Assembly: GCF_021347895.1 (NCBI RefSeq)
Contig: NC_067116.1
Location: 44,450,628-44,514,627 of the forward strand
From: Acanthochromis polyacanthus
Taxonomy: Eukaryota > Chordata > Actinopteri > Pomacentridae
Direction: 5' to 3'
Length of the DNA: 64,000 nt
Position numbers and translations under genes: made by a program. Below the pieces are notes generated by a model. The model was given only the letters and a program-made list of their open reading frames with translations. It was not told the DNA's origin and did no database searches. Positions within the stretch are counted from its first letter, which is position 1. Each line of letters opens with the position of its first letter. Positions 18,139 through 37,141 of the stretch are shown here, piece by piece.

Positions 18139-18320
18139 TGTCAAGTAAGATGCAGATGTTGAGGTCTCAGAGAGGACTCAGGCTCATTACAGCCCTAAGG
18201 TAACAAAGGTTTTAAAGCAGACAAATAAAGATCTTAAGAAGAAACATTATAAGTTAACCATATGATTGTGCCTGCTAAAATACATATATATTTTTTGAAG
18301 TGTTGATTTGATTGAAGTAA

Positions 18321-18327
18321 TGACTCA
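18321..18327 (+). promoter_or_regulatory. AP-1 consensus site in U3
   Basis: TGACTCA, a perfect AP-1 (Fos/Jun) consensus, lies about 400 bp upstream of the TATA box. The same site is in the 3' LTR at 35471-35477. Binding is inferred only. Confidence 0.5.
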
Positions 18328-18724
18328 GATGATTTATTATGTTCAGATTGAGAAGGATGATTTAAGAAGTGATTCTGTGTGAAGTAATCCTTGTTTAGGC
18401 TCTGTGTGTGCGTACAGGCCTCATAGGCTTGTGTGTCCAGGCCTTAAGAAAGCAGAAGTGAGAATGGCAGAAGTCCCCTTAGAAATGAGGAACTTGGAGT
18501 TTCCACAGGATGACAGGATGGGCTGAGGCCTATTTGCAGAACATTGTCATAGCAACTGAGTATGTGTTAAATGTATTTGCTGTAAAACACATGATTCTAT
18601 GCAACTGTTGTGTGTGTAACAGGAAAAAGGTTGAGTCTTAAGACCTATGAGTCAAGGATATGGGCGTACCAAGAGGTAGAACTGTGTGTAAAACGGTGTA
18701 TGTGTTTGTAAGAGAGAGAGAAAG

Positions 18725-18732
18725 TATAAAAA
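18725..18732 (+). promoter_or_regulatory. LTR promoter TATA box
   Basis: TATAAAAA follows a GA-rich stretch (AGAGAGAGAGAAAG). A start site would be expected 25-30 bp downstream, near 18755. The ATG-free stretch that begins there is consistent with the start of an untranslated leader. Confidence 0.8.
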
Positions 18733-19386
18733 GGGAAGCGCAGAGACATTTGTTGGGAGTTGTTCGCCGGAGCCGTCAGAAGAACAGCAAAGGGAACTTG
18801 GCCAGAGTTCTGAAGAATCTTCACCTTCCTCTTTTGCCCGAGAGACGGGAAGACGACGCGGGACTTAGGCTCCAGAGATCGCTGAGGACATCGTTGGAAG
18901 CAAAGTCTTTTTCTGACTTTGTTCAACAAGCGAAGACCACACTCTGCCAAACGGAGAGTCCTAAGAGGTTCTGAAGTTATCCAGAAGAAACCAATAGAGG
19001 GAAGATCCGACTACACCCGAAGAGGCAAAGGAGGCAACAGCACCGGGCTGTTCCCCTCCCCGGGGCTGGGAGACCCAGTGCCCCACTACAGCCTGACCAG
19101 ACGAGGGTTTCCCATCACCACCATACCACAGAGAAGACAGCTGGGGCGTAAGCACTAACGTTCCAGCCAATTCCAGAAGATAACTGCCAGACCAACGATT
19201 GGCTTACAGGACTCCTCCGCTCCCCCCTGCCAAGGGATAAGATCCTTTTGTCCACAAAGAAGACATCGTACCGAGTCCTCCGGACAACTGAGTGCTTTTC
19301 CCAGACGCAAGACAAGACCGAGTGATACGGTAGTGGCCATGCTGTTTGCTCTCTCTCCTAAATTTAATAATTAGAGAAGATTGTCA

Positions 19387-19388
19387 GG
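19387..19388 (+). promoter_or_regulatory. candidate major splice donor in R
   Basis: TGTCAG|GTACGC matches the donor consensus at the exon end and first intron bases. It lies about 630 nt into the predicted transcript, just after the ATG-free leader. Foamy viruses also place their major donor in R. The ATGs at 19339 onward would mostly be removed by splicing here. No transcript evidence is available. Confidence 0.45.
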
Positions 19389-19483
19389 TACGCTCAATTT
19401 ATTTACTTTAGTCTCATTTTTAATCAGAAATAATTAATTGTTTTAATCATGAATTGATGCTGTGCTCTTGCTAAGATTTGCTT

Positions 19484-19489
19484 AATAAA
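19484..19489 (+). terminator. poly(A) signal of the LTR (5' copy)
   Basis: AATAAA within GCTTAATAAAAAGCTG. Cleavage 10-25 nt later would put the R/U5 border near 19505. The functional copy is in the 3' LTR (36634-36639). In the 5' copy the signal must be bypassed for full-length RNA. Confidence 0.75.
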
Positions 19490-19984
19490 AAGCTGTATTG
19501 CATTTAAAGAGAAGCCTAATGAAATTATTATAAATCACTGGAATTCTGCATAGTGGTAAAAAGTTAAGTTGATTGTGTGCATTCGAACCAATGGTTCTTA
19601 AAGGTTACTTAGTCTAAAGTGAGAGTGTTTAAACATTACCCCTGAGGTTAGTTCTTTCCAAACCTCTAAAACGAACCCAGGAATAGCACCAAGTGCAGGC
19701 AAGTCCTATGAGAGCAGCTGACCGATAACGAATGTGTATGATAGATCAATTCTACCACTTAGAAAGCTGCTTGGTGGGATAGCATTTATCAGATAAGAGG
19801 GGTGAGACATTCGGATGCAAGGCAGTTAGAACCTGGGCGAGTGTCTCTCGATTCCAGCTTAATTTATTCTGCTGAAACCTGTTAGGTGAAAATACTAATA
19901 GGCAGATAGAATCTAACCCTTTAAACAGAGAGCTGGACCAATTTTAACCTGAGGCAAGGGTTGAAAAAGGCTAGACTGGCGAAC

Positions 19985-20011
19985 ATGGCGTCCCTGGGTG
20001 GGCACGAGTGA
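19985..20011 (+). CDS. 8-codon upstream ORF spanning the LTR/PBS junction
   Basis: The last base of the LTR (A) and the first bases of the primer binding site (TGG) create an ATG with a favourable context (GAACATGG), giving an 8-residue frame that stops at 20011. It overlaps the whole PBS and lies about 390 nt before the gag ATG. It may dampen gag translation or be a by-product of the PBS sequence; I cannot tell which. Confidence 0.35.
   Translation: MASLGGHE
19986..20003 (+). promoter_or_regulatory. primer binding site, tRNA-Asn(GUU)
   Basis: TGGCGTCCCTGGGTGGGC directly follows the LTR's terminal CA. Its reverse complement ends in CCA and matches, over 18 nt, the 3' acceptor/T-arm end of vertebrate tRNA-Asn(GUU) as I know it. 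Foamy viruses use tRNA-Lys1,2, so this departs from that group. Confidence 0.9.
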
Positions 20012-20397
20012 AGAAAGAAGTGTCCAAAAGAAGATTCTGAGGGTCCGGCACCGACACCTAGAATCAACCGCCAGAACCTTTTAGTGGAAACTGGGGAAGA
20101 GAGGGCCAATCTCTTCTGACCGAGGGTCCACGCTGCGGAGATCGGGGAAGGAGAAGACGAGACCTTCTGACCGAGGATCCACAGCACGGGTGATCAGCCG
20201 ACAGAGAGACTCGGGATCATCACGCCTGACGGGAGGTACAGTGAGAACCGCAGGCTAGAAGAAGCCGCAGTGACCTTGGGCCAGCGCATCCCAGAAAAGA
20301 GGCACCGCGGAGCAGCTAGACGAGGTCTGCACTCATCCCTGCTCAACGGTCCTACGAGAGGTTTTGAGGGAGCAGACGACTCGAGACGACAAAGACG
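20004..20397 (+). promoter_or_regulatory. 5' leader, likely packaging region
   Basis: An untranslated segment between PBS and gag. It contains a direct repeat TTCTGACCGAGG(G/A)TCCAC at 20114-20131 and 20165-20182, 51 bp apart, each flanked by GAGA/GGAGAAG purine tracts, and an AG|GTACAG donor-like site near 20232. Repeated stem-loop units are common in retroviral packaging signals; that role is inferred from position. Confidence 0.45.
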
Positions 20398-23300
20398 ATG
20401 GCTGAGAGCCAGCAGGACAAAGATGTACTCGTCCCTGATACAGAAGAGGCGACAGCCCCACAAGACGAGACAAAAGCCGGAGGGTCCGGTGAGCAAGAAG
20501 AAGAGGATCCATCCTCCGAAGCCCCAGTGCCGGGGGAAACAACGATCAGCGAAGTAGTGAAAGATTCCACTTCAAAGATGCTTCGCCCAGACCTCACTCC
20601 GACCTTCCAGTACCAGATTGTCCTGGCAGGTAAAGGATGGGATACCTGGGAAGAAGGAATAAGGAAGCATGTGCGCAACTTCAACCAGAGGCTGACAGAA
20701 GCGCAACTAAAAGAGCAAATACAGGAAGGCCTTGACAAAGACGGGTGCTTCACCTCCCACGAGAAAATAGGAAAGCACTGGTTGACAGTGCTAGGAGCCC
20801 TGTCGACACCACCAAAGTCGAAGGATGGGGCGAGACAATGGTTAATCTGGTGGGGTGAGTATCTGAAAGAATCAATGAGAACCGCTCCAATGTCGAAAGT
20901 TGTCATGCTTTTGAGTCCTTCTCCAGAATATGACCCTGTGGTGAAGATGCTCGCCAAAGAGACAGAGGTGACTCCAGTCCTGATTGCCAACCGCGTCCGG
21001 GCAACGGCGATCCCGAGGGACCACAGAGATGTGTTGAGGCCCATACATGAATATAGGGCCTCAAGAAGCCAGATGACGATTGAAGAAGACCGGCGGAGTG
21101 AACAAACACACACCGGATCCGTGATCGAGTCGGAGGACTCAGACGAAGAGCCAGGGGGGCTTGAGTATGCCGGGCTGCCAAAGCCAACAGGGTTCGCCAA
21201 ATGGGAAGCCCTGATGGAAGTTGGTGAACCAAGCCGCACATACCCAATGCCTCGACCAAGTTTCGCAGGAAACTACCCTACTCTGACTCCTGCAGGCCGT
21301 GAGAGGGTGCAAGCAACCGACGAAGTTCTCCAAACCACACAGAAGGCCCTTCAATCCTTAAAGGCGTACCAAGCCGCATACGCCATTGCAGACTACCCAG
21401 TCGACGACCTCTGCACCAAGGACGAGTCAGTGAGCGACAGATCCGAGAGGATCCTCCCCATCCTACCACCGTTGCCCACAGATGGTAAAAAGTTCGGCAA
21501 CCAGACGGGCGCTACAGCTTACTACATCGAAGGAGACCCTTGGCAGTACCACGCAGACGCCCTGCTGGTGATATCCTCCTCCATCCTGAAAGTCAGAAAT
21601 ACAGCTTTCAGAAAGGCGCTCGCACGCAGAGGTGGCGAAGAGTACAAGAAGGAGAGAGAAGAAGCCAGTAAAGAGAATAGAAATCGTCCAGACGGATGTA
21701 GATCTGTGGTGGTAACCAGCGGAGGAGATTCAACGTACTACTCAATAATCCATGTGATAGAAGATGAGTATCGTGAGGGAGACGACATAGAGTCATACAG
21801 AAAAAGGCTGTATGGTGCCCTGATCAAAGGACTGGCGAAAGCAAATGACCTGAAGTACAGGAGAGTGGTCATCTGTGCTGATGGACTGAGATCCAACACG
21901 CTGCCCTGGGAAGTGGCAGAAGAGGCGGCCACAAGAGCAGCGAAATGGCAGCTGATGGCGCATGAGGTTTGTAATGAACTGAAGCAACTGGTGGTCATGA
22001 CCTCTCAAGCCCAGAACAAAGAGCGGAGAGATCGCATACTGAAGCCCTGCAAGGATGCAGAGAAGGCGAGAGGCCTTAAGGCAAAGGGGAAGACGGATCG
22101 ACCAGCAGAGGACGGAGCAAAGCTGCCTGAGGTGTTCAGCCCTGAGCGGGAGAGAAAATCATCCACACCTGGTGAAGCAGCCCCGCCCGGAGCTTACCCT
22201 GGGGGTGAACACAGCTACGTACAGAGCCAGTCTCAACCCAAGTCCATGGTGATATGGAAGCAAGAGACTCCTCCGGGAGCTGTGGTACAGAGGTTGTACC
22301 TACGGGACCAAGAAGGGGCCATGGAAGCCGCAATCCCCGAAGGCGACTATACCAACCTGCAGACCACTGGGCAGGACCCAAGAGAGCAGAGAACACCAAG
22401 GACCCCTGTACCTACAGGTCCAGTAGTTTCACCCATCACTCCAGGACCAACGCCTCCTGTCCCAAGACGACGCACTAGTTTGGAGCCAAGGCGTGTTACC
22501 GTCAATCCAGCACCAGAACCAGATATCGTGATAAGCAGCAGTGAGTCGTCCGATGAAGAAGAAGAGCAAGAAGACGACCAGTCACTGGAATCAGTCCCCC
22601 ATCAGACACCTAACCCTCCAAAAGACCTCAGAGTTGGCACCAGAAAGGGTGAGAAGAAACCAGTAGAAATGGTGTCAGTAAGAAAAACCTCAGAAAGGTT
22701 GGCAAGAGATCCAAGCTTCGGCCCCATTAAAACCAGAGATGAGAGGCAAGCATACATGCCGGAAGTCGGCCAGACCAGCTATGATGTGCCAGTCAGCTGG
22801 GCTGAAAAACCAGATGAGAGGAAAATCCTGCCGGTGAGTGCTACAATTGTGGAATGGGCTAATATATTGATGATGCCTAGTTATGGGACTCTAGCAGCAT
22901 GTACGCAGCTGACAGCTGGTTTCAGAACGGCCTTCATCGCCATAACCCATGATGTGATGCTTCGGAGAATGAAGAGGGCAGCGTACAGTTACTCCAAAGA
23001 AGTGGAAAAGGCAATGTTGGAAGATTTTTCCGAGGATGAAGAAACCGGAGAAAGACCCCAACAGCAGCCACAGCCACAGAAGGCCCCAGCAGCATCCGTG
23101 GCTGGAGCAGCAGGTAATGCGATGAGCCTGCTGACACCAGCCCAGGGCTTCACAGAGTTCAAAAAGGTCAAAATGCTGGTGAAGGACAAAGAGCCTGGGC
23201 AAAGTATGGTAAATTACCTGAGAGACAACTGGTCACTGGTGAAGAACACCACTACGTGCGAAGAAGCCAGAAAGCTGTGGTTGACCTATGCAACAGGTAA

Positions 23301-23910
23301 CTCAGTGAAAGAGGGAGAAACTTCTCAGAGCCATTATGATCGGTTGGTGCTTGAAGACTCAGATGATGAAGAGAGCTGGTTACTCAGAGCCAAAGCAAGG
23401 CTGGAGAAGGGACAGACCCTCACCCTCATCTGGCATGAGATCCAAGACAAATTTCCGCCGACAAGGTATATAAGAGCCCTGAGGGCCCTGACTAAAAACC
23501 AGAGGGATGAGGTAGACTTCGCCGCCATGCCGTATGAAACCACAGTAACCCAGCTCAATGCAGCAGTAAAGGGGTGGGACCTGAAGAGGAGGTTCTACCA
23601 GACGAGAAAAGAGAAGGAGTCACAGCAGCAGCCACCAAAGGCTAAGCCACCACAAGAGACCCCTCAACGACCAAGAGAACCAAACCCACCACAGCGCTCT
23701 CGGTCCTGGCCTAACAGACCAGCCCCCAGAGACCAGGCAAGACCGGCCCAGAACAAGCAACCATTCCAGCCTCGACAGACACAGAAGCCGGCTGGTGAAA
23801 GGAAGAGTGATTACCTGCCCCCAGACGAGTACAGAAAGCTGACCCCGGAGCAGAGAGACGCCCTCCGGGCCGCTCGCCAAGCAGCGGGCACTCAGGGGCC
23901 GGCTAAATGA
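20398..23910 (+). CDS. gag: Gag polyprotein (1170 aa) with internal macro-like domain
   Basis: Start is the ATG at 20398 (GACGATGG context, G at +4). Recognition as Gag is by position between PBS and pol. It is much longer than usual (about 500-700 aa in most genera). Residues ~30-230: unrecognised, Trp-rich helical part. Residues ~374-525: macro-domain-like (see the separate entry). Residues ~560-710: proline-rich linker. Residues ~711-726: SSSESSDEEEEQEDD acidic tract. Residues ~905-1065: a charged helical segment that could be the capsid C-terminal part. Residues ~1065-1150: a Pro/Gln/Arg-rich basic tail that probably binds nucleic acid. No CCHC zinc knuckle is present, unlike orthoretroviral nucleocapsid and like foamy Gag. 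No clear PTAP or PPxY late motif was found. The stop TGA overlaps the pol ATG. Confidence 0.88.
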   Translation: MAESQQDKDVLVPDTEEATAPQDETKAGGSGEQEEEDPSSEAPVPGETTISEVVKDSTSKMLRPDLTPTFQYQIVLAGKGWDTWEEGIRKHVRNFNQRLTEAQLKEQIQEGLDKDGCFTSHEKIGKHWLTVLGALSTPPKSKDGARQWLIWWGEYLKESMRTAPMSKVVMLLSPSPEYDPVVKMLAKETEVTPVLIANRVRATAIPRDHRDVLRPIHEYRASRSQMTIEEDRRSEQTHTGSVIESEDSDEEPGGLEYAGLPKPTGFAKWEALMEVGEPSRTYPMPRPSFAGNYPTLTPAGRERVQATDEVLQTTQKALQSLKAYQAAYAIADYPVDDLCTKDESVSDRSERILPILPPLPTDGKKFGNQTGATAYYIEGDPWQYHADALLVISSSILKVRNTAFRKALARRGGEEYKKEREEASKENRNRPDGCRSVVVTSGGDSTYYSIIHVIEDEYREGDDIESYRKRLYGALIKGLAKANDLKYRRVVICADGLRSNTLPWEVAEEAATRAAKWQLMAHEVCNELKQLVVMTSQAQNKERRDRILKPCKDAEKARGLKAKGKTDRPAEDGAKLPEVFSPERERKSSTPGEAAPPGAYPGGEHSYVQSQSQPKSMVIWKQETPPGAVVQRLYLRDQEGAMEAAIPEGDYTNLQTTGQDPREQRTPRTPVPTGPVVSPITPGPTPPVPRRRTSLEPRRVTVNPAPEPDIVISSSESSDEEEEQEDDQSLESVPHQTPNPPKDLRVGTRKGEKKPVEMVSVRKTSERLARDPSFGPIKTRDERQAYMPEVGQTSYDVPVSWAEKPDERKILPVSATIVEWANILMMPSYGTLAACTQLTAGFRTAFIAITHDVMLRRMKRAAYSYSKEVEKAMLEDFSEDEETGERPQQQPQPQKAPAASVAGAAGNAMSLLTPAQGFTEFKKVKMLVKDKEPGQSMVNYLRDNWSLVKNTTTCEEARKLWLTYATGNSVKEGETSQSHYDRLVLEDSDDEESWLLRAKARLEKGQTLTLIWHEIQDKFPPTRYIRALRALTKNQRDEVDFAAMPYETTVTQLNAAVKGWDLKRRFYQTRKEKESQQQPPKAKPPQETPQRPREPNPPQRSRSWPNRPAPRDQARPAQNKQPFQPRQTQKPAGERKSDYLPPDEYRKLTPEQRDALRAARQAAGTQGPAK
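21517..21972 (+). other. macro-domain-like segment within Gag (residues ~374-525)
   Basis: The protein pattern follows the macro fold order: GDPWQYHADALLV (like GDIT..VDAIV), then a helix, then VVVTSGGDSTYYSIIHVI (like AVITGGYNL...VIHTV), a helix YRKRLYGALIKGLAKANDLK, strand RRVVICAD, and a helix starting at LPWEVAEEAA. The loops that bind ADP-ribose in active macro proteins are altered: the NAAN position reads ISSS, the GGGV loop is replaced by LKVRNTAF, and the STGIYGY loop is not conserved. Binding may therefore be lost or changed. Assignment is by eye; a profile or structure comparison would decide it. Confidence 0.6.
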
Positions 23911-26900
23911 TGGCCCAAGAGGCACGGGTCACCCTGGAACATGCCTACTGGAAGGGGGATGAAATCTACACTGATGTGGATGGAGTCCCTTACCAAGTAG
24001 ACTCCGGGGCAGAGGTGTCGATGACCCGCAAGAGCCTCGACATAGCAGGACACCTACAGGCCCAACTAGCTGATGGAGCAGTTAGGGAGTTCCCATATGC
24101 AATTTGGAAAGGAATTGTATGGGTTCTTGGGCCTTTCAATCTGGTAACGACAAAAGACCTAAAACGGCTACATCAACCCAAGAAGAACATGCCAGTCGAG
24201 AGACTGAAGAAGTTGCGGGCTCGCCTGATCCGCTTTACCCCTCAACAAGAAGAGTTCCAGCTCAAGCAGTGGTACAAGCCAGTCAATGTAGAAGAGGTCG
24301 CGGCACAGAAGGTTGAAGAGAGTGATCTGTCAGCTGCAGGAAAAGAGCGGCTGAAAGAAATCATCTCCAGAGCCAAGGTAGCGCGGTTCAAGAATGATTG
24401 TGGGGATATTGGGGAGAAGTACACCCATACTATGATTGGAGGAGTGCATCCAGCGGTCCGCCAATATCCCCTCAATCCAGGTGCAGTAGAAGAAATGGAC
24501 CTGATCGTCAAAGAGCTGAGCGCACTGGGGATAATCCGAGAGGAACCGAATCCAATAACCAACAGCCCAATCCAGGCAGTGAAGAAACCTGAGTCGGCGG
24601 GTGGAGGATGGAGGCCAGTGATCAACTTTAAAGCCCTTAACCGTCGGACAACCGCGAACAAGGCAAGTTTGATCAATCCCCAAGGCACCCTGAAGACTCT
24701 ACAGGTCAAGAAGTACAAGTCCTGTATTGACCTAGCGAACGGATTCTTCTCCCTGCGCCTCGCCAAAGCCTCACAAGGCAAAACAGCATTCACGCATAAG
24801 GGAAAAGCTTATGTCTGGACCCGACTGCCCCAGGGCTTCAAGAATTCACCAAATGTGTTCCAAGCCGCTGTAATGGATATATTACAAGGACTTGGAGCAA
24901 CAATCTACATTGACGACGTGTTCATCGCAGACGACTCTGAGGAAGAACATCTGGCAAAGCTGCAAAAGATTGTTGAGAAGCTGACAGAAGCAGGCCTAAA
25001 GCTGAACCTGAAAAAGTGTCAATTTGGCCAGTTTGAGGTAAACTACTTAGGATTCCAGGTCTCAACCGACCTAGGGATCTCTGAAGGATACCGAGAGAAA
25101 CTGGAGCAAATTAGACCTCCAGGATCACTAAGAGAGCTACAACAGATCCTAGGTTTGTGCAACTACGTGAGAGACCATGTCCCTGGGTACCAGAAGTATG
25201 CCAGATCGCTGTATGCAAGATTGAAGAAAGCTGAAGACCAGCCTGAAGAGGACCACGACAAGACTTGGACATGGACAGCAGCAGACCAGCACCATCTGGA
25301 AGAACTGAAGAAGGCGATCCAGGGAGCCCTACGGTTGGAGCCCAGAAGCCTGACGACCAGATTGGTAGCTGAGACGAGCTGCGACGACGACGACGCCGTG
25401 GTAAAAGTCAGTAATGAAGGAGCAGGAATTGTGGCTCTATGGAGCTACACACTGACATCCGTGGAGAAGAAGTACCCACCAGAAGAAAAGGAATTGGCAG
25501 TCCTGGCAAGATACTGGAGTGCCCTGAAGGACCTGGCACAGGGTCAGGGCATCAAAGTCAACACCCAGAGCCAGGTACACCGATTCCTGAGAAAGGCCAC
25601 TGTAGAAAGTACCAAGGCGACCAATGCGAGATGGGGAAGATGGGAAGACATCCTACTGGACCCAGACCTCGAGATTGGGCCAACTCAACCCGCAAGTAAG
25701 AAAGCACCAAAGCCTGAAGAACCAACAGAGGATCCATATGAATGGACTCTGTACACCGACGGATCGAGAAAGGGTCCAGACAGCACTGCCTATTGGGGCT
25801 TCATCCTCAAGCAAGGTGAAAAAGAGCGTTACCGACAGAAAGGTAAAGCAGAAGGCAGTGCACAGACAGGAGAAGTCACAGCGGTCCTAGAGGGCCTGCT
25901 GGAGCTAGAAAAAAGAAAGGTTAAAAGAGCTAGAGTAATAACAGATAGTTCTTACTGTGCACAAGCTCTGAATGAAGACTTAGCCATTTGGGAAGAAAAT
26001 GGTTTTGAAACTGCTAAAGGCAAAACGGTAGCACACCGTGATTTGTGGCAAAAAATTGCCGAGTTAAGAATGAATATGGACCTCGAAGTGAGGCACCAAC
26101 GGGCCCATACAAGAGAGGGGGCCCACTGGAAGGGAAACGACGAAGTAGATCGTTTCGTCCAGATGAGAAAATTCGTCTTTGTCGGGATCGAGGAATGGGA
26201 CCAAACCCCTAAAGGAAAAATTGTCCCAGAGAAGTACGTGGAAGAAGTGGTGCGGGCCGTACATGAGGCGCTAGGCCATGTGAGCACGCTTCCTACCCGT
26301 AGGGAGCTGGAAAAGCTGCAACTCTGGATTCCAGAGCGCCGTGTGCGACAAGTACTGAGGGCCTGTGAAGTATGTGGTCGATACAACGCAGGACGCCGAG
26401 GGCAAAGAGTAGACGGGCTCACCATCAAGAGCACTATTCCCTGGGGTTCTATCTGCATGGACGTAGCAGGCCCAATGGGGGTTACAGGGAAAAGAGGTGA
26501 GAAATACCTTTTAGTGCTAGTTGATTCAATGTCAGGCTATGTGGTTACTAAACCAGTGAAGAAAGCTAACGGCAACAGTGTAGTTAGCATGTTGGAACAG
26601 ACGTGTGGCATACTAGGGGTGCCAAAAGAATTGAGAACAGACAATGGGACACACTTCAAGAATGCAAAAGTGGATGCATGGTGCCAACAGTATGGGGTGA
26701 TGAGGATTTATTCACCTCCATACACGCCACAAGCAAATGGAGTGGTCGAGCGAGCCATTGGGCTGGTAAAGAACTGGATAGGCAAGAATGCAAATTCCAA
26801 AGAATGGAGCACTAAAACCCTAGAAATAGGAAAGGCCCTGAACGACAGACATCGAGCTGATAGGCCTTCCCCTTCCGAGGAGCTAAATCAACGCCCCTTT

Positions 26901-27137: not shown

Positions 27138-27159
27138 AGAAAACCAGGAATCAAAAACC

Positions 27160-27321
27160 ATGGCTACGAGCACACAAGGCTTACCACCCTTCATCGGAGT
27201 AGCCAACGTTAAAGGGGTGGTTACTATGCGGAGAAGTACTACGGGACTCTGGGCAGGCAGAGCCCTGAAGAAATTGGACTATGCTAAAAAAGGATTCCTG
27301 TCAGAAGAAAAGAGATGTTAG
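27160..27321 (+). CDS. small ORF between pol and ORF-A (53 aa)
   Basis: An ATG in a strong context (AACCATGG) opens 53 codons ending TAG at 27321, overlapping the ORF-A start by 7 nt (ATGTTAG). The product starts MATSTQGLPPF and has a basic middle (MRRSTTGLW...RALKKLDYAKK) and no predicted membrane segment. It resembles nothing I know. The strong start context is almost the same as that of ORF-C (AGAACCATGGCTA). It may be a real small protein, a leader controlling ORF-A translation, or chance. Confidence 0.4.
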   Translation: MATSTQGLPPFIGVANVKGVVTMRRSTTGLWAGRALKKLDYAKKGFLSEEKRC

Positions 27322-28559: not shown

Positions 28560-28579
28560 GGTCAACCTGTCGTTGTGAA

Positions 28580-29755
28580 ATGCCGTATCTACCAGTGTAT
28601 GCACCATACACGGATGTAGAATTGCATTCTGGAAGGCCATATATACAAGAATGTAATGGTAGAATATACTTAGACTCCCCAGAAAGAGATTTCAAGTACA
28701 TTAATAGAGAATGTGGGACAGTGAACTATTTTTGCTCTAATTTTGAGTACACCAGAGACCCGGATACGCAGAAATCTGGACCATTTCCTATACGTGCGCC
28801 ACGTGTAGTGAGAGGGATCGATCTTCAAATGAGGCAGAGACGGTTCGACGATGTGAACCAAAGAAAGCACTGGATATGGAAAGCGGTGCCCCCCTGCCCA
28901 AAGTCGTCTCCTTGGATCCTAAATGTGGCCTGCTTCTCGTGGGGGTCAACAGAAGTCAAACTGACATGGGGGCCTAACTACGCTGACCCATGGCAGGGTG
29001 AGTACTGCGAGATCAGTATAGGAAGGAGGGTAATCTGGACCTCCAGCCCTTATATGTATAGGAAGATGAGATATCGGATAGTGAATCCTAGCTGCTATCT
29101 CCTTGAAAACCGAAGTCTTCCTCTGCGTACAATCACCCAAGAAATAGAAATCCACCCAAGGCAGAATGGAGGATACCTGCTTCCAAGAACAGTGGAAAGT
29201 CCTCTCATATATCCTGGGCGAGGAAACTGGTTCTACCATGACCGAAAAGCCAAGGTGATGGAGTTGGTGGCGCCAGGAGACCAGCCACTATATGCTGAGC
29301 TATTGCAGATCCGAGAATCGGGCAGAAGAAACGCTAAAAGGGATGGCGGAACGGCAGAAGACTACCTAGAAGACACCCCTTTTGAGGAGGCCCGAAGAGG
29401 AGTGCAAATGAATGCAGGATTGTTCGCACAAATTGCTGAAGGACCATTGCCAAGGCCAGATCGGTTGATCGTGACGTCATGGAAATGGGTGTGGAGAGGG
29501 CTGGACCCAGAGATAGACAAGTACCCTGCTCCTATCTACACGGAGTTACTCAAAGGAAGGATCACACGAGATGAAGAAGCGGAGCTGGCACGAGCACTGA
29601 AGCCCCTCTTCACTGTCTCACCCGAGACCGAACCTGAGGATAAACCAGTCCAGATCCTGAAACCTTGCACCAAGAAGCGGCCCGCAGGCGGATTGAGAGG
29701 AAACTCAGGACGAAGGAACGACAAAAGGAGGAAGGATTCCGATCCTAGCCGATAG
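28580..29755 (+). CDS. accessory ORF-B, soluble paralogue of the Env N-terminal domain (391 aa)
   Basis: About the first 340 residues align without large gaps to the N-terminal ~370 residues of Env, with identical runs such as LTWGPNYADPWQGEY, SPYMYRK/NPYMYRK, ECGT.NYFC, LYAELLQ.RESG and WVWRGLDP. By eye about half the positions match. Unlike Env it has no membrane segment and ends in a strongly basic, nuclear-signal-like tail (KKRPAGGLRG...RRNDKRRK). The ~25 bp before the start codons, and the ends of the preceding genes, are also similar at both sites, so the pair arose by tandem duplication. Function is unknown. A cytoplasmic or nuclear partner of Gag or a regulator of Env is possible. The frame is open and under apparent constraint. 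Confidence 0.8.
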   Translation: MPYLPVYAPYTDVELHSGRPYIQECNGRIYLDSPERDFKYINRECGTVNYFCSNFEYTRDPDTQKSGPFPIRAPRVVRGIDLQMRQRRFDDVNQRKHWIWKAVPPCPKSSPWILNVACFSWGSTEVKLTWGPNYADPWQGEYCEISIGRRVIWTSSPYMYRKMRYRIVNPSCYLLENRSLPLRTITQEIEIHPRQNGGYLLPRTVESPLIYPGRGNWFYHDRKAKVMELVAPGDQPLYAELLQIRESGRRNAKRDGGTAEDYLEDTPFEEARRGVQMNAGLFAQIAEGPLPRPDRLIVTSWKWVWRGLDPEIDKYPAPIYTELLKGRITRDEEAELARALKPLFTVSPETEPEDKPVQILKPCTKKRPAGGLRGNSGRRNDKRRKDSDPSR

Positions 29756-29781
29756 TAAGATAAAGCCTCTCCTTGTACATA

Positions 29782-32700
29782 ATGCCACGCCGACCATATC
29801 TGTGTAATGATAGGTATACGGGGCGACCATGTATACAAGAGATTAATGGAAAGATATATTTGGATCGTCCCAAAAGAGATTTTGAATACACCAACAACGA
29901 GTGTGGCACACTGAATTATTTTTGTACCAACTACGAGTATTCTAGAAATCCAGACAATGACCGAACCGGGTCAATTAAAGTGTGTACTCTGTGCATAGTG
30001 AAAGGAAAAGAACTCCAGGAAAGGCAGAAAAGATACGAAGAATCAAGGGGTAGATGGAAGGACCAGCCAGTGCCAACCTGCCCGGTCGCAGGCCCCTGGA
30101 TCCTGAATGTAGCCTGTATTCCCTGGGGAGGGACGAGCATCAAGCTGACTTGGGGACCCAACTATGCCGACCCATGGCAGGGAGAATATGTTGAGATCAG
30201 TGTGGGAGAATTAGTGGTCTGGACATCCAACCCCTACATGTACAGGAAGCTGAGAAAACGCATGGACGACCCTAACAGGTATGTTCTAGAGAACTGGAAC
30301 CTTCCACTGCGAATGATAGTCCAAGAGAAAAAAGTTCCTACGAATCTGGATGGGAGAAAAATGTTTCCCAGAACAGTAGAAAGGCCTATAGTGAGTGAGG
30401 GAAGAGGAGAGTGGTACTACCATGAACGAAAGGCGAAGTTGGTGGAACTAGTGACTCCAGAAGGCCACCCGCTGTACGCCGAGTTGCTGCAAAGTCGAGA
30501 ATCAGGACCACGCAACGCCAGAGCTTGGAATGAACAGCGGTACTACTATTCATTAGATTCCCCCTATGAAGCGGCCCGGAGAGGGTTAAAGGTGAGACCT
30601 TTTGATCAGTACTCAAGAATTGCTCAAGGGCCCCTACCAAAGCCAGATCGGCTGATCATTACGTCATGGAGATGGGTGTGGCGAGGGCTGGACCCACGGC
30701 TTGATAAGTACCGGCTTCCCATCTACACAAGGTTACTTGAAGGAAGAGTTTGCGGAGATGAAGAGAGGGAACGCTACGAGGAGCTAAAGGCTATCTTCCC
30801 CAAACCACCAGAAGAAGAATCCACAGACGCATCAAAAGAAGACCCGGGGATGAAAATGTCCCCAAAAAGCAAAAAATTTATGGGCCTAGATGAAGAATTC
30901 GACATGGATGAACGGCATTCACAAACACGACAACGACCACGGAACGGTAAATGGATTTGGATATGTCTAGCGATTAGAGTTTTAGCAGTTATAGTAGGAT
31001 GTGCATCAGTCCTAACTATACTATATGTTCTCGGAGAAGAACCATGGGCAGAAGCCTATACAGAAATTAGTTACACCTCAACGAAGAGGTTTAACCAGAC
31101 CTGCGGAGAAGCGCAGCCTAGAAATCTATTCCTACCAAAGCTACAAGCATGGGGGAATGATACAAACCAGACGGCCCTACCAGAAGTGATGAAGCTGCTG
31201 GGCCCAGTACAAGGCAAAGATGACAGCAAGAACTTCACCACAGACATCCTAACCTGGGTTGGAGAAATTGGAACGAACGCCACCAACAACCAGACCACTC
31301 TGCAGACCTGGAGAGACATCCTTGAAGCAGAAGACCTGATCAACGCGACCACAATGGTGGAAGACTGGCAGACCTACTCTGAAGAAATAGGTATCCGGTA
31401 CTGGATCAGGAATGGAACCAGGATCAAGACAGGTCAGTGTAACTGGGTTCATCCAAACCTGGAAACCCCAAGATGGTACTGTACGAAGGCATGTGTCCTA
31501 TGGCCGGGACAGACGACCAAAGGCTACTGGAAATCTGAAGTTGTGTATGCAGCACCCCACAAGAATGAGACGTGTACCAAAATCCTCCCGTCAGATGGGA
31601 TGTTTTGGGGATACTACAACTTCACATGTGATACCCCACCGCCTCCAACAACACAGCCACCAATGGTGACTGAAGCCTCAAGAAACGTAACCCAAGCTCC
31701 AACCACCATCGTAGCTGAAACAGGTTCAGTTTCAGCCACCCTTACACCAGCACCTGGGGTGAGTACAACTACCCAGAAAGCTACTATACAGTTGGTAGAT
31801 CCAAACTTCAAGCCAAGAAGAAACCATCGCCAGAACCGCTATTGGGAAATAATCAAGGCTTGTGTAGCAGATAAGTTCTTAGCCTTAGATCCCTGCTACT
31901 GGAACATGCTCGCAAACTGTAAAACACAGAATTATCTGGTAATAACTCCCGCTACACACCTGATGTTCTACGTCACTAAAGGCAAGTATGGAGCTGAACC
32001 ACGGGCACACCATGAAAACTGGCTTAACGACACCTTGCCCTGGCTATGGATAGTTCCAGTGAAGCACTTTAGAGGAGCATTCCCGAAGGGTTATGCAAGA
32101 ACTGGCCAAGGTCTGGCAGGACCAACACAAACTGACATGTATGTGCAGAAGCTGCCTACGCCACCAGAGCTGATGGGGGTTCCAGGAGGGGATTTCCAGA
32201 AGATTGACCAATGTGTGGTGAAAAAAGTAGTTGAAGCACTGGACGGAGAAGAGTATGTGAGTAATGGTGCCTCGCCAAGATGCCCATTATGGCAAGAATG
32301 GAACAGATACTACGGTACATGGACCTACAACTGCAGCGAACTGACGGCCAACGAAACAGTTAAAGGTATTCTACAGGCCTGGAGTGAAGGACACACTAGG
32401 AGTGAATCCTCTACTTGGTGGGGCCTGCAGAAGCAAGAGATCCAGGAGTGGGTGGTTCCATGCCTGAGCCAGACCAGCAACTACTGGGTAAAGTACCAAT
32501 ATTTGGCTACAGTCTATTCCAAAGAAAGAGACATTTGGCCTGGTGTATGGAGCAAACCTGAACCCTACGTGAATCCAAGGCCATGGCGTATGGTGTGTGA
32601 CAGAGCTAACACGACGTGCACCATTGGCCTAGCCAGACAGCATTGCCAGGGGGTTCCCGGATGGGAAGACCACTGCCAAAGCCACTATGGAGAAGACTAC

Positions 32701-33327
32701 GCGACCTATGGGTTGGAAGTGAAATGGGTTAAGAAGAGTGGGAAATGGAGAAGAGACATTCCTGAGGGAGTGGGATGTGCTAAAGCAATTCTGGGTCATC
32801 AGATGATGAACAGAAAAGAGGTGAACGGAAAGATCATTCCACACGTAGCAGACCCAACTGTCGCCATAGCAGAAGGACACGCCTTCAGAAAGAGCCTTTG
32901 TGAAGGTAAAGAAACCAGAGGGTTCGAGTGGTTGGGCCCCAACAGAATCTACAACAACGGGACCTGCCATTCACCAGAAGAGCGTTGGATGCATTGTGGT
33001 CAGGGAAGAAAGGAGCATGAATGCACCTGGTGGGAGAGAGCCACCTTGACGGTACAAGGAACGTTCGAGACAGCCTTAGAAACTGTGGTTGAGACCATCG
33101 AAGAAGGAGCTTCGGTGGTAGGAGGGTGGATTAAGAGTTTGTTCACCTGGTTATGGCCATATTTGCTGATGATTTTAGTGATAATCATCATAATGGTCAT
33201 AATCTACGCAGTCATCAAGGGAGGAATTGGAGCTGCCTTCCTCTCCTGCCAGAAGAACGACCACGCAGGCGCGAAGGAGGAGGCGAAGCAGTCCCTCCTC
33301 CGGAAGGAGGCGTGGACTACAGTATAA
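29782..33327 (+). CDS. env: Env glycoprotein precursor with long N-terminal leader domain (1181 aa)
   Basis: Start taken as ATG at 29782 (MPRRPYLC), aligned with the ORF-B start. Residues 1-~385: a domain shared with ORF-B, presumably cytosolic. Residues ~391-415: first membrane segment (WIWICLAIRVLAVIV...). Then an ectodomain with 16 N-x-S/T sites and many cysteines, a Thr/Pro-rich mucin-like stretch (~620-672), and basic RXXR sites at 680-686 (RNHR, RQNR) suited to furin cleavage. The last membrane segment is ~1123-1150 with a ~30-residue tail. The two-pass precursor with an N-terminal cytosolic leader recalls foamy Env, but that leader is only about 60 residues before its membrane segment. 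Receptor and fusion peptide are not identified. No frame breaks are present. Expression presumably uses a spliced RNA. Confidence 0.88.
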   Translation: MPRRPYLCNDRYTGRPCIQEINGKIYLDRPKRDFEYTNNECGTLNYFCTNYEYSRNPDNDRTGSIKVCTLCIVKGKELQERQKRYEESRGRWKDQPVPTCPVAGPWILNVACIPWGGTSIKLTWGPNYADPWQGEYVEISVGELVVWTSNPYMYRKLRKRMDDPNRYVLENWNLPLRMIVQEKKVPTNLDGRKMFPRTVERPIVSEGRGEWYYHERKAKLVELVTPEGHPLYAELLQSRESGPRNARAWNEQRYYYSLDSPYEAARRGLKVRPFDQYSRIAQGPLPKPDRLIITSWRWVWRGLDPRLDKYRLPIYTRLLEGRVCGDEERERYEELKAIFPKPPEEESTDASKEDPGMKMSPKSKKFMGLDEEFDMDERHSQTRQRPRNGKWIWICLAIRVLAVIVGCASVLTILYVLGEEPWAEAYTEISYTSTKRFNQTCGEAQPRNLFLPKLQAWGNDTNQTALPEVMKLLGPVQGKDDSKNFTTDILTWVGEIGTNATNNQTTLQTWRDILEAEDLINATTMVEDWQTYSEEIGIRYWIRNGTRIKTGQCNWVHPNLETPRWYCTKACVLWPGQTTKGYWKSEVVYAAPHKNETCTKILPSDGMFWGYYNFTCDTPPPPTTQPPMVTEASRNVTQAPTTIVAETGSVSATLTPAPGVSTTTQKATIQLVDPNFKPRRNHRQNRYWEIIKACVADKFLALDPCYWNMLANCKTQNYLVITPATHLMFYVTKGKYGAEPRAHHENWLNDTLPWLWIVPVKHFRGAFPKGYARTGQGLAGPTQTDMYVQKLPTPPELMGVPGGDFQKIDQCVVKKVVEALDGEEYVSNGASPRCPLWQEWNRYYGTWTYNCSELTANETVKGILQAWSEGHTRSESSTWWGLQKQEIQEWVVPCLSQTSNYWVKYQYLATVYSKERDIWPGVWSKPEPYVNPRPWRMVCDRANTTCTIGLARQHCQGVPGWEDHCQSHYGEDYATYGLEVKWVKKSGKWRRDIPEGVGCAKAILGHQMMNRKEVNGKIIPHVADPTVAIAEGHAFRKSLCEGKETRGFEWLGPNRIYNNGTCHSPEERWMHCGQGRKEHECTWWERATLTVQGTFETALETVVETIEEGASVVGGWIKSLFTWLWPYLLMILVIIIIMVIIYAVIKGGIGAAFLSCQKNDHAGAKEEAKQSLLRKEAWTTV
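33251..33252 (+). promoter_or_regulatory. candidate splice acceptor near the end of env
   Basis: A pyrimidine-rich run (CTGCCTTCCTCTCCTGCCAG) ends in AG at 33252, a very good acceptor. It lies 190 nt upstream of the ORF-C ATG, so it could serve ORF-C mRNA. It also opens an Arg-rich alternative frame. Confidence 0.45.
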
Positions 33328-33412: not shown

Positions 33413-33441
33413 CCACACCCTACAACAAGAAAAGAAGAACC

Positions 33442-34140
33442 ATGGCTAACAACAGCACTCGATTCAATGTAAGTGACTGCACTTTGCTTTGCGACAAAGC
33501 CAGCTTCAGAGAATGCATGGAGTTTTGGGCTATTGAAGTCACTTGGATCATCCATTGCTGCACCGGGGCATGGGCCCTGGACCAGCCACTGAGAATCGCT
33601 ACCCTGATCCTGGGGCTCACTAAAGAAGCCCTAGTCAACGTCTATCGACGGTGTGGCCTGAATACCCTGTCCCTGTTCATGACCTACATCCAGGGACGAG
33701 CCAGGATTGACACCACCCGAGTTGGCCTGCTTAAGGGAGCAGGTGTGGTCTCCTGGGCGATATTGGATTTCGCCGCCCTGTTCTACAGCCCCCTGAGATG
33801 GATCAGCGTCGCCTACGAAGGGTTGCTAGTGGTGCTGCTGTTAGCATATCTAGTCACACTAGCAATGGCGCTGCAAGAAAGAGGAAGAGGGCGTTGGCTG
33901 CTCAAGCTCGGCGCCATTACTCTCTGGGGCGTAGGCTGGGGCATTATGGCAGTTATGTATTGGCTGCTGATAGATAGAGGGGTAGTTGGAGTAGTTTGGT
34001 TCATGTTGTACGGAGCCCTCTTTCCTCGGAAAGAAGGAGAAGCAAAAAGTCCAGGACGCACACCACCAGTGGTCCTGCAATCCCCTTGGAGAAGCAGAAT
34101 GGCACAAAGGCGCGCCCAAAGAGATGACAGGGCAGAATAA
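33442..34140 (+). CDS. accessory ORF-C, four-pass membrane protein (232 aa)
   Basis: Start placed at the ATG at 33442 in a strong context (GAACCATGG); the frame is open further upstream, but only with a GTG. The N-terminal ~95 residues are Cys-rich (C13, C17, C25, C39, C40, C71) with N-glycosylation motifs at N3/N4 and N9 and a moderately hydrophobic stretch ~51-67. Four likely membrane helices follow at ~98-116, 124-145, 153-177 and 180-195, and then a basic tail of ~35 residues (FPRKEGEAK...RMAQRRAQRDDR). No family is recognised; retroviral accessory membrane proteins normally have one span. It could act as a viroporin, a receptor modulator or a trafficking factor. All of that is inference. 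Confidence 0.72.
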   Translation: MANNSTRFNVSDCTLLCDKASFRECMEFWAIEVTWIIHCCTGAWALDQPLRIATLILGLTKEALVNVYRRCGLNTLSLFMTYIQGRARIDTTRVGLLKGAGVVSWAILDFAALFYSPLRWISVAYEGLLVVLLLAYLVTLAMALQERGRGRWLLKLGAITLWGVGWGIMAVMYWLLIDRGVVGVVWFMLYGALFPRKEGEAKSPGRTPPVVLQSPWRSRMAQRRAQRDDRAE

Positions 34141-34243
34141 GAAGCAACACCATGCCCTGTTTTGCTCGCTAGCTTGCTACGCTATGAATATTTATATATA
34201 TATTAAATGAAATCAAGAGTTTCTATGTCTGCTTAAATTCCAG
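34141..34243 (+). promoter_or_regulatory. candidate internal promoter and splice acceptor before ORF-D
   Basis: TATTTATATATATATTAAAT, with a TATATATATA core at 34193-34202, lies about 45 bp before the ORF-D ATG. The segment ends in TCTATGTCTGCTTAAATTCCAG, an acceptor whose AG (34242-34243) touches the ATG. Foamy viruses carry an internal TATA promoter late in env that drives their transactivator gene, so a similar arrangement is plausible. Both elements are predicted from sequence only. Confidence 0.45.
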
Positions 34244-35251
34244 ATGAGTGCAGCCTGCATTAAATGTGGGGGTACAATTGAAGAAAAGAAATGCCTCTGG
34301 GATGTCTCACCTACCTTTTGGTGTGAGATCTGTTACAAGGAAGCCTTCCCTGTTACTACAGCACAAGGCATTTATTGTAAGAAACCTGAAGCTTACCTCC
34401 CTAATGTTGTCCTGGGACACCACATCAGCATACAAACCACGGCCATGCCGATGGGCAGCTCGATGGTCGCATATCAAGCCAAGCCTGAAGAATGGTGTCA
34501 AGAAAGTCCAAGTGGGTATTACCTCCCAGTTTATGTTAGATTCTGGAAACTTCCAACTGGAGAAGGCGTCTCCACAACCCATGTTGCAGACGGAAGATGT
34601 GTCGCCATAGGGAAACCATGGAAATTACCCGAGTTACCTATAACTCCGATCGAAGCAGCGATGCCAGTAGTTGAGAGGCCCCCTACTCCGCCAAAGAAGA
34701 CGGAAGGACGGTCCCAAGGCACGCAGACTGAGCCTCCACCACAAGAAACGGAGGTCCAGTGGAACTACAGCCAGGAACTCAGTGAAATACTGGAGATGCC
34801 ACTCCCAGTGATGGAAGCAGAATGTCAGCTACCTCCGGTGCTGTCACCCATACCTTCACGGCCTCCGACACCTCTAACGGACGACCCGCCTGAGATATCG
34901 GAGGTACAGTCTACACCTGAAATATTGGGGTGCCAAGACACGCATCCTACTATGACGGTCCCAGACGTGCTGGTGGACATCGAACGCGCCATCGAGCAAC
35001 TCACGATGCCCAAAGTGGCTGCTGTGCAGGGTATCCAACGACCAGAGACGCCTGCAGTGGCAGTGGTGCAGGGCGTCCAACGACCTGCATTTCCTGACTT
35101 ATCAGAGTTGCGAGTGATCGACAGCTGGGAGCAGTCACCTGGAGAGCTCTACATCGTTGAAGAAGTTGTAACCACCACTGACACTGAGATGCAGCTTGGA
35201 GACCTGCTGGATCTCACTGCACCAGAAGACGACGTTGACCTCTTCCCCTGA
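34244..35251 (+). CDS. accessory ORF-D, candidate transcriptional activator (335 aa)
   Basis: The N-terminus has C5-x2-C8, C17 and C27-x2-C30, a likely zinc module (ACIKCGG...FWCEICYK). Residues ~40-130 look folded. The middle is Pro/Thr-rich (ERPPTPPKK, SRPPTPLTDDPP). A short internal repeat follows, VAAVQGIQRP then VAVVQGVQRP. The C-terminus is acidic and hydrophobic (DLLDLTAPEDDVDLF), which looks like an activation domain. As the last gene before the polypurine tract it sits where foamy viruses encode Tas/Bel1, the activator of both LTR and internal promoter. There is no sequence resemblance I can name, so the role is inferred from layout and composition. The stop lies 27 bp before the polypurine tract. 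Confidence 0.72.
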   Translation: MSAACIKCGGTIEEKKCLWDVSPTFWCEICYKEAFPVTTAQGIYCKKPEAYLPNVVLGHHISIQTTAMPMGSSMVAYQAKPEEWCQESPSGYYLPVYVRFWKLPTGEGVSTTHVADGRCVAIGKPWKLPELPITPIEAAMPVVERPPTPPKKTEGRSQGTQTEPPPQETEVQWNYSQELSEILEMPLPVMEAECQLPPVLSPIPSRPPTPLTDDPPEISEVQSTPEILGCQDTHPTMTVPDVLVDIERAIEQLTMPKVAAVQGIQRPETPAVAVVQGVQRPAFPDLSELRVIDSWEQSPGELYIVEEVVTTTDTEMQLGDLLDLTAPEDDVDLFP

Positions 35252-35278
35252 TCGCTTGGAGTCGCTATCTGTGACCTC

Positions 35279-35288
35279 AAGAAGGGGG
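35279..35288 (+). promoter_or_regulatory. polypurine tract for plus-strand priming
   Basis: AAGAAGGGGG directly abuts the TG that opens the 3' LTR, the expected position for the RNase H-resistant plus-strand primer. Confidence 0.9.
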
Positions 35289-35874
35289 TGTCAAGTAAGA
35301 TGCAGATGTTGAGGTCTCAGAGAGGACTCAGGCTCATTACAGCCCTAAGGTAACAAAGGTTTTAAAGCAGACAAATAAAGATCTTAAGAAGAAACATTAT
35401 AAGTTAACCATATGATTGTGCCTGCTAAAATACATATATATTTTTTGAAGTGTTGATTTGATTGAAGTAATGACTCAGATGATTTATTATGTTCAGATTG
35501 AGAAGGATGATTTAAGAAGTGATTCTGTGTGAAGTAATCCTTGTTTAGGCTCTGTGTGTGCGTACAGGCCTCATAGGCTTGTGTGTCCAGGCCTTAAGAA
35601 AGCAGAAGTGAGAATGGCAGAAGTCCCCTTAGAAATGAGGAACTTGGAGTTTCCACAGGATGACAGGATGGGCTGAGGCCTATTTGCAGAACATTGTCAT
35701 AGCAACTGAGTATGTGTTAAATGTATTTGCTGTAAAACACATGATTCTATGCAACTGTTGTGTGTGTAACAGGAAAAAGGTTGAGTCTTAAGACCTATGA
35801 GTCAAGGATATGGGCGTACCAAGAGGTAGAACTGTGTGTAAAACGGTGTATGTGTTTGTAAGAGAGAGAGAAAG

Positions 35875-35882
35875 TATAAAAA
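35875..35882 (+). promoter_or_regulatory. TATA box, 3' LTR copy
   Basis: TATAAAAA, same position as in the 5' LTR. If active it would transcribe rightwards into xpr1 intron 2 in the sense direction. Confidence 0.6.
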
Positions 35883-36633
35883 GGGAAGCGCAGAGACATT
35901 TGTTGGGAGTTGTTCGCCGGAGCCGTCAGAAGAACAGCAAAGGGAACTTGGCCAGAGTTCTGAAGAATCTTCACCTTCCTCTTTTGCCCGAGAGACGGGA
36001 AGACGACGCGGGACTTAGGCTCCAGAGATCGCTGAGGACATCGTTGGAAGCAAAGTCTTTTTCTGACTTTGTTCAACAAGCGAAGACCACACTCTGCCAA
36101 ACGGAGAGTCCTAAGAGGTTCTGAAGTTATCCAGAAGAAACCAATAGAGGGAAGATCCGACTACACCCGAAGAGGCAAAGGAGGCAACAGCACCGGGCTG
36201 TTCCCCTCCCCGGGGCTGGGAGACCCAGTGCCCCACTACAGCCTGACCAGACGAGGGTTTCCCATCACCACCATACCACAGAGAAGACAGCTGGGGCGTA
36301 AGCACTAACGTTCCAGCCAATTCCAGAAGATAACTGCCAGACCAACGATTGGCTTACAGGACTCCTCCGCTCCCCCCTGCCAAGGGATAAGATCCTTTTG
36401 TCCACAAAGAAGACATCGTACCGAGTCCTCCGGACAACTGAGTGCTTTTCCCAGACGCAAGACAAGACCGAGTGATACGGTAGTGGCCATGCTGTTTGCT
36501 CTCTCTCCTAAATTTAATAATTAGAGAAGATTGTCAGGTACGCTCAATTTATTTACTTTAGTCTCATTTTTAATCAGAAATAATTAATTGTTTTAATCAT
36601 GAATTGATGCTGTGCTCTTGCTAAGATTTGCTT

Positions 36634-36639
36634 AATAAA
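36634..36639 (+). terminator. proviral poly(A) signal (functional copy)
   Basis: AATAAA within GCTTAATAAAAAGCTG, 759 nt downstream of the 3' LTR TATA box. It should terminate proviral RNA and, being in sense orientation, could also terminate xpr1 pre-mRNA prematurely. Confidence 0.8.
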
Positions 36640-37137
36640 AAGCTGTATTGCATTTAAAGAGAAGCCTAATGAAATTATTATAAATCACTGGAATTCTGCA
36701 TAGTGGTAAAAAGTTAAGTTGATTGTGTGCATTCGAACCAATGGTTCTTAAAGGTTACTTAGTCTAAAGTGAGAGTGTTTAAACATTACCCCTGAGGTTA
36801 GTTCTTTCCAAACCTCTAAAACGAACCCAGGAATAGCACCAAGTGCAGGCAAGTCCCTATGAGAGCAGCTGACCGATAACGAATGTGTATGATAGATCAA
36901 TTCTACCACTTAGAAAAGCTGCTTGGTGGGATAGCATTTATCAGATAAGAGGGGTGAGACATTCGGATGCAAGGCAGTTAGAACCTGGGCGAGTGTCTCT
37001 CGATTCCAGCTTAATTTATTCTGCTGAAACCTGTTAGGTGAAAATACTAATAGGCAGATAGAATCTAACCCTTTAAACAGAGAGCTGGACCAATTTTAAC
37101 CTGAGGCAAGGGTTGAAAAAGGCTAGACTGGCGAACA

Positions 37138-37141
37138 ATGT
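37138..37141. other. provirus target site duplication, right copy (ATGT)
   Basis: Direct repeat of 18135-18138. The uninterrupted target reads CTACATGTATGTACG. Confidence 0.85.

Follow-up and report, generated by a model that had tools for sequence, protein, structure and literature searches.

An 18,999-bp provirus of Acanthochromis polyacanthus: a probable giant foamy-like endogenous retrovirus with a duplicated Env leader

Introduction

Giant foamy-like endogenous retroviruses (FLERVs) of ray-finned fish measure 17.4–17.5 kb and carry their genes in the order gag-pol-acc3-acc4-env-acc1-acc2, with acc3 and acc4 marking one FLERV clade (Aiewsakun and Katzourakis 2017, PMC5512871). That description leaves the accessory genes of the giant fish elements without a known origin or function. 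Foamy viruses themselves are characterized by Gag-independent translation of Pol, binding of Gag by the Env leader (Elp) and an internal promoter (review, PMC3798896). The subject of this report is a provirus at positions 18139–37137 of a 64,000-nucleotide stretch of the Acanthochromis polyacanthus genome (assembly GCF_021347895.1, contig NC_067116.1, positions 44,450,628 to 44,514,627), referred to below as the window. An earlier note on this DNA regarded the element as far larger than described retroviruses and as matching no genus, a claim that is answered by the 17.4–17.5-kb fish FLERVs of the same gene order. Coordinates of all features within the window are given in Table 1.

Relationship to foamy viruses and fish FLERVs

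The element is best read as a giant FLERV of ray-finned fish that was inserted recently, duplicated Env leader included, and we put the probability of this reading at roughly 75%. Its genes follow the order gag-pol-A-B-env-C-D, which equals gag-pol-acc3-acc4-env-acc1-acc2. The nearest kin of its Pol are foamy viruses, as judged by best match among solved structures and not by a tree. In a sequence search of the Protein Data Bank (PDB), of which the best 60 of 370 matches were considered, four foamy-virus chains of protease-reverse transcriptase (RT)-RNase H scored 279–274 bits over ~580–640 residues, and a shorter fifth scored 237. The next matches were 8r0s ("Enzymatic polyprotein", 127 bits), Ty3 (108 bits), entries named 'Reverse transcriptase/ribonuclease H p80' (106–104 bits), which we take to be murine leukaemia virus or the related XMRV, and human immunodeficiency virus (~58 bits). 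Among the best 60 of 129 matches to the integrase, prototype foamy virus (PFV) is likewise first, at 54 bits, followed by human T-lymphotropic virus 2 (HTLV-2) at 48.

The junction of gag and pol is also foamy-like. The pol frame has a TAA stop immediately before its ATG, and the gag stop TGA (23908–23910) overlaps that ATG. Because of the TAA, no frameshift upstream of 23904 can yield a Gag-Pol fusion, and the one route left by the sequence is a frameshift at the final codon of gag. Translation of Pol thus very likely begins at the pol ATG, and its message would be either spliced or re-initiated.

The element resembles mammalian foamy viruses (Spumaretrovirinae) in its best Pol match, separate pol ATG, knuckle-free Gag and predicted Env leader with its own transmembrane (TM) segment. 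It differs from them in being about twice their size, in having ORF-A and ORF-B between pol and env, in a leader of ~395 residues and in the macro-domain match within Gag. Neither ORF-C nor ORF-D matches a foamy accessory family in Pfam. Of the foamy-like traits listed in the earlier note, the separate pol ATG, the lack of a zinc knuckle (motif scan) and the 4-bp target duplication were all recovered, and the long Env leader is borne out as a prediction from hydropathy and sequon placement.

Compared with the reconstructed giant FLERVs, all three elements are giant (17.4 kb for AciFLERV and 17.5 kb for AliFLERV, against 19.0 kb here), and AliFLERV lacks acc4 (PMC5512871). The accessory proteins of AciFLERV, at 465, 334, 253 and 234 aa, compare with 414, 391, 232–243 and 335 aa here; by order and sizes, the present element has a single acc1 and a larger acc2 than the two published ones. 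Both of these are known from ancestral reconstructions, their copies being broken (PMC5512871), whereas the present copy is open throughout.

If the element were no relative of foamy viruses but a deep lineage of its own, or a lokiretrovirus, this would agree with the failure of Gag, Env and the accessory proteins to match any foamy family model, and with the absence of Gag relatives in the protein and viral-contig searches. However, Pol bit scores favour foamy viruses and the gene order is that of published FLERVs, and we regard this alternative as very improbable. Lokiretrovirus Env resembles the fusion proteins of Mononegavirales (PMC9040795), whereas the Env encoded here has no Pfam match above cut-off; together with the Pol scores, this led to rejection of a lokiretrovirus identity. 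The earlier note had offered 'spuma-related or separate deep lineage'. Its first half stands, given the similarity of Pol, a start codon of its own for pol and a predicted Env leader, but an undescribed deep lineage does not. The same note had held that a Pol placed within a known group with the same accessory genes would refute its reading, and such a group was found as regards gene order and best relatives, not by tree.

Provirus boundaries and age

The provirus is real and intact in appearance, with all large genes open, and it was likely inserted recently. Its long terminal repeats (LTRs) are identical at 1847 of 1849 alignment columns. There are no substitutions between them, and both differences are single-base indels within homopolymers. 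The insertion edges read ...ACATGT/TGTC on the left and AACA/ATGTATG on the right, giving a 4-bp ATGT duplication. With three events taken as the 95% Poisson limit for zero substitutions, the LTR pair is at most ~56,000 years old at a fish rate of 1.46e-8 (quoted in PMC5512871), and the same arithmetic at slower rates of 1.9–2.4e-9 (quoted in PMC6001957) moves the bound to roughly 340,000–430,000 years. Gene conversion between the LTRs may be an alternative cause of their identity. The structurally intact retrovirus of ~19 kb proposed in the earlier note was recovered in full, with LTRs, 4-bp duplication, primer-binding site (PBS), polypurine tract (PPT) and seven open frames within 18,999 bp.

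At 19984–19986 and 35288–35290 the terminal CA of the 5' LTR touches the PBS and the PPT touches the initial TG of the 3' LTR, leaving no bases for trimming by integrase. The absence of trimmable end bases is unusual in comparison with orthoretroviruses. Each LTR also contains a 104-aa frame beginning with ATG (18660–18974 and 35810–36124), and a scan of the left copy gave no Pfam match. Rfam and tRNA scans of the 64-kb window were both empty.

Seven large frames (gag, pol, ORF-A, ORF-B, env, ORF-C and ORF-D) are free of stops, against 8 to 81 stops in each of the two alternative frames of every gene. The accessory frames were compared with 300 block shuffles (pairs of bases), scoring the longest stop-to-stop run. 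The longest run averaged 102 codons (maximum 175) in the shuffled A+B region and 105 codons (maximum 249) in the shuffled C+D region. ORF-A, ORF-B and ORF-D are longer than every shuffle. ORF-C, at 243 codons, falls below the shuffle maximum of 249; read from its ATG, it has no stops against 16 and 8 in the other two frames. The four accessory genes of the earlier note are thus all stop-free, and three of them exceed the shuffle maximum. A chance origin of the element's frames was rejected on the LTRs, the duplication, the shuffles and the stop counts.

Outside the provirus, the long frames at 46426–48192 and 54075–55949 are artefacts of GGAA-type satellite, with 331 copies of a 4-base unit at 46607–48023, and the first of these (588 aa) was rejected as a gene.

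ORF-B and the Env leader

The N-terminal ~365 residues of Env recur, in diverged form, as ORF-B. The two are identical at 195 of 363 positions (54%; BLASTP against the N-terminal 368 residues of Env, E 2e-131), and this is the sole relation in an all-against-all comparison of the seven proteins, the next match being ORF-B with Gag at E 0.044. Synonymous divergence is saturated (dN 0.40, dS 2.55; method NG86), and in 17 of 18 overlapping windows the two copies agree less well at third codon positions than at either of the other two. From the saturated dS and the third-position pattern, the copy is old, and both members look to have been kept under selection.

The Env frame is best started at the ATG at 29782. 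The earlier note's 1181-aa Env with two TM-like stretches was found, from frames and hydropathy, as was its 1170-aa Gag. Env has 16 sequons, each of them beyond residue 437, and the leader is free of them. The segment shared with ORF-B precedes both the first TM-like stretch and all 16 sequons, and it is predicted on this basis to be cytosolic, as part of an Env leader with a cytosolic N terminus and its own TM anchor.

A protein search with ORF-B scored 4770 candidates and admitted only proteins of 0.55–1.75 times the query length, so that relatives fused to Env could not appear. Five of the candidates, all from public data, proved to be relatives. None of the five includes an Env ectodomain, and one (P0009) also lacks the N-terminal part. 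They are apparently standalone. However, they sit on contigs of 1016–3725 bases, and some may be truncated or disrupted env genes. The C-terminal tail is net positive in ORF-B and all five relatives (6 of 6), whereas the Env copy has 14 K+R against 18 D+E. In a seven-row tree, ORF-B and the Env leader are sisters (support 100/99), and the other three inner branches have bootstrap values of 85–90. The sister pairing would fit copying after the split from the other five relatives, or gene conversion, and if the tree is rooted on its single env row it would fit an old duplication with uneven rates.

The direction of copying may have been the reverse, with a standalone acc4 as the older form and a copy of it fused onto env in this element to produce the giant cytoplasmic leader. 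The sister grouping of the two window copies (100/99) and the lack of an Env ectodomain in all five other relatives are in keeping with such an origin. At differing sites each relative also sides with ORF-B more often than with Env (37/29, 35/16, 28/25, 28/23 and 16/13), and the 2017 paper noticed paralogy between acc1a and acc1b while reporting, in its available text, none between acc4 and env (PMC5512871). However, full Env relatives were kept out by the length limit of the search, some of the short contigs and the truncated P0009 may represent damaged env genes, and a single env row allows rooting on env, with old duplication or gene conversion as possible outcomes. We consider the reverse direction somewhat less probable than an even chance.

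The basic tail invites a second alternative, in which ORF-B is a nuclear RNA export factor that binds viral RNA. Rec of human endogenous retrovirus K (HERV-K) and Rem of mouse mammary tumor virus (MMTV) are regulatory proteins from the N terminus of Env and are splice products of env. ORF-B has an Env N-terminal origin in common with them but is a separate duplicated gene. The net-positive tails of ORF-B and its relatives, unlike the Env copy, are what an export factor would lead one to expect. On the other hand, Rec and Rem are much shorter and are made by splicing, and we know of no RNA export factor encoded by foamy viruses, so that this function seems improbable for ORF-B. The model of the ORF-B family has a mean pLDDT (predicted local distance difference test) of 43, and fold searches at E ≤ 0.001 returned none of 466 PDB and none of 168 BFVD candidates.

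Several observations weigh against the reading of the element as a giant FLERV with a duplicated leader. No named FLERV sequence was among the search returns, and placement comes from gene order and best Pol matches rather than a tree. The lead of PFV over HTLV-2 in the integrase is small. No foamy Gag or Env model was matched at E ≤ 1 in Pfam, which holds such models. The KKxx retrieval signal at the C terminus of Env is a foamy feature, and it is absent here, where Env ends in AWTTV. The first 400 residues are also free of sequons in 258 of 2000 shuffled Env sequences, which makes sequon placement by itself a weak argument for topology, and the dN/dS comparison of ORF-B with Env was made by NG86 only. 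Finally, the PBS reads as complementary to the 3' end of a tRNA-Asn. Both giant FLERVs use tRNA-Lys (PMC5512871). A tRNA-Lys PBS is found in most mammalian foamy viruses and in the giant FLERVs, but it is not defining for the whole group, and tRNA-Asn is reported for NviFLERV-1 and for galago foamy virus (PMC5512871). NviFLERV-1, from the eastern newt, shares with the present element both this PBS and a foamy-like Pol, and differs in being defective, 9.2 kb long and equipped with one accessory gene (PMC5512871).

Within the Env ectodomain, residues 680–686 (counted from ATG 29782) read RNHRQNR and contain two overlapping RxxR motifs, the sole such cluster and a candidate cleavage site; one more RxxR lies at 933. 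Searches of the PDB gave two weak matches of Env. One is to a designed repeat protein (E 0.0053), where no single stretch passes by itself, and the other pairs leader residues 103–170 (TTG numbering) with a Down syndrome cell adhesion molecule chain (E 0.018).

Gag and the macro-domain match

Gag has no CCHC knuckle and neither P[ST]AP nor PPxY motifs, with one YPTL. Its residues 406–510 match the Pfam macro domain PF01661 with 27.8 bits, above the Pfam cut-off of 22 (E 2.6e-6). Two NCBIfam models of ADP-ribose-binding proteins also match residues 367–509 (E 1.8e-5 and 7.4e-5; 24 and 22 bits), although both scores are far below the models' own equivalog cut-offs.

Chance, or a resemblance at the level of the fold without ligand binding, would explain why pairwise PDB searches with Gag matched no solved macro domain and why protein searches found no homologues, with no relatives among the 7993 candidates listed and scored for residues 60–560 and none of 1141 at E ≤ 0.001 for a 261-residue piece. 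A single-sequence model of the macro piece is poor (pLDDT 38) and has no visible macro-like fold. A glycine loop and a NAAN-type motif are usual in macro domains, and neither could be recognized by eye in this piece. The profile score above cut-off and the agreement of the two NCBIfam models on the same residues, for all that their equivalog cut-offs lie far higher, speak against coincidence, and we find this explanation rather unlikely. If the match is genuine, the unrecognizable Asn-containing and Gly-rich motifs predict a non-catalytic binder, and the domain would bind RNA or an ADP-ribosylated host protein without catalysis.

Coding capacity for a macro domain is on record for fish retroviruses, in epsilon-like endogenous elements (Basta 2009, cited in PMC4977317). 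In those elements the domain is an additional ORF (PMC4977317), whereas here a foamy-like element has the match inside its Gag frame. An antisense frame of 295 aa (20352–21239, minus strand) overlaps the start of gag and has no Pfam match.

Other accessory genes and candidate control sites

ORF-A, ORF-B, ORF-C and ORF-D have no match in NCBIfam, and scans of viral contigs with Pol, the ORF-B alignment, ORF-A and Gag found no relatives. ORF-A contains the string PSAPPLY, in which P[ST]AP and PPxY late-domain motifs overlap. This overlap occurs in none of 5000 residue shuffles of ORF-A, whereas each motif alone occurs in 105 and 431, respectively. Through PSAPPLY, ORF-A would recruit the endosomal sorting complex required for transport (ESCRT).

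Several hydrophobic stretches fall within residues 107–204 of ORF-C, which would be a multi-pass membrane accessory protein. It alone of the four has a match in PHROGs, a weak one to a family of unknown function (E 0.069). In ORF-D, the last 45 residues include 13 acidic and no basic ones. A TATA run at 34193 lies between ORF-C and ORF-D, not in env, and is a candidate internal promoter. With this run upstream and an acidic tail, ORF-D would be a Tas-like transactivator, a role that we propose for it rather than for ORF-C.

The PPT core is present in a second exact copy near mid-genome, which may represent a central PPT. Window shuffles hold 0.20 copies on average, and at least two copies were found in 2 of 100 shuffles.

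Table 1. Features of the provirus, in window coordinates
Feature	Position	Strand	Remarks
Target site duplication ATGT	18135..18138 (left), 37138..37141 (right)	strandless	from reading of the flanks
5' LTR	18139..19985	+	1847 bp; TG...CA; TATAAA at 18725, AATAAA at 19484
PBS TGGCGTCCCTGGGTGGGC	19986..20003	+	starts straight after 5' LTR; reads as complement of tRNA-Asn 3' end
gag	20398..23910	+	1170 aa
Macro-domain match in Gag	21613..21927	+	aa 406–510, Pfam PF01661
pol-frame stop TAA	23904..23906	+	immediately 5' of pol ATG
pol	23907..27137	+	1076 aa; protease DSG (32), RT YIDD (334), RNase H, integrase
ORF-A (acc3 position)	27315..28559	+	414 aa; three CxxC pairs in first 102 residues
PSAPPLY in ORF-A	27783..27803	+	overlapping late-domain motifs
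Second exact PPT core AAGAAGGGGG	28458..28467	+	candidate central PPT
ORF-B (acc4 position)	28580..29755	+	391 aa; Env-leader paralogue, basic C-terminal tail
env	29782..33327	+	1181 aa from first ATG
Env leader region homologous to ORF-B	29794..30876	+	predicted cytoplasmic
First TM-like stretch of Env	30979..31035	+	leader anchor; residues 403–421 in P0005 numbering
Second TM-like stretch of Env	33160..33216	+	from hydropathy
ORF-C (acc1 position)	33442..34140	+	232 aa from ATG, 243 from GTG; predicted multi-pass membrane protein
TATA run TATATATATA	34193..34202	+	~50 bases 5' of ORF-D; candidate internal promoter
ORF-D (acc2 position)	34244..35251	+	335 aa; two CxxC near N terminus, acidic C terminus
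PPT core AAGAAGGGGG	35279..35288	+	adjoins 3' LTR
3' LTR	35289..37137	+	1849 bp; two 1-base indels relative to 5' LTR

Discussion

The most solid feature of this provirus is the paralogy of ORF-B and the Env leader, followed by the macro-domain match, while the functions assigned to its proteins are predictions. By analogy, the element most likely replicates like a foamy virus. In foamy viruses, egress is driven by the Env leader, which contacts the N-terminal part of Gag. On this model the oversized Gag would be the docking site for the very long Env leader, which is predicted to be cytoplasmic. ORF-B has the same module with a basic tail but no membrane anchor; as a soluble protein it would occupy the same surface of Gag and tune assembly or egress. 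The Env-leader module is thus predicted to be used twice, once tethered on Env and once free. A scheme that unites all of these parts, with one Gag-docking module in two copies (the 365-residue Env arm and the free protein), a captured macro domain in Gag that reads RNA or ADP-ribose, and a late domain supplied by ORF-A, is speculative and, taken as a whole, doubtful.

The provirus belongs to a known group, and it is likely that the paralogy of ORF-B with the Env leader and the macro-domain match in Gag represent new biology among viruses that are still little understood. Neither the relation of acc4 to Env nor a macro domain in Gag turned up in the literature searched. A study by Ruboyianes and Worobey from 2016 reportedly deals with giant foamy-like elements of teleosts that have long gag-like genes and many accessory genes, and these may overlap with the features presented here.

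Tracing acc4 to the virus's own Env leader provides the gene with a relative and, in Gag, with a partner that can be tested; if true, it would be the first identity for this orphan gene. A macro domain inside Gag, if true, would be a new retroviral route to host ADP-ribosylation or RNA. An open copy with LTRs free of substitutions also bears on the possibility of very recent activity of such viruses.

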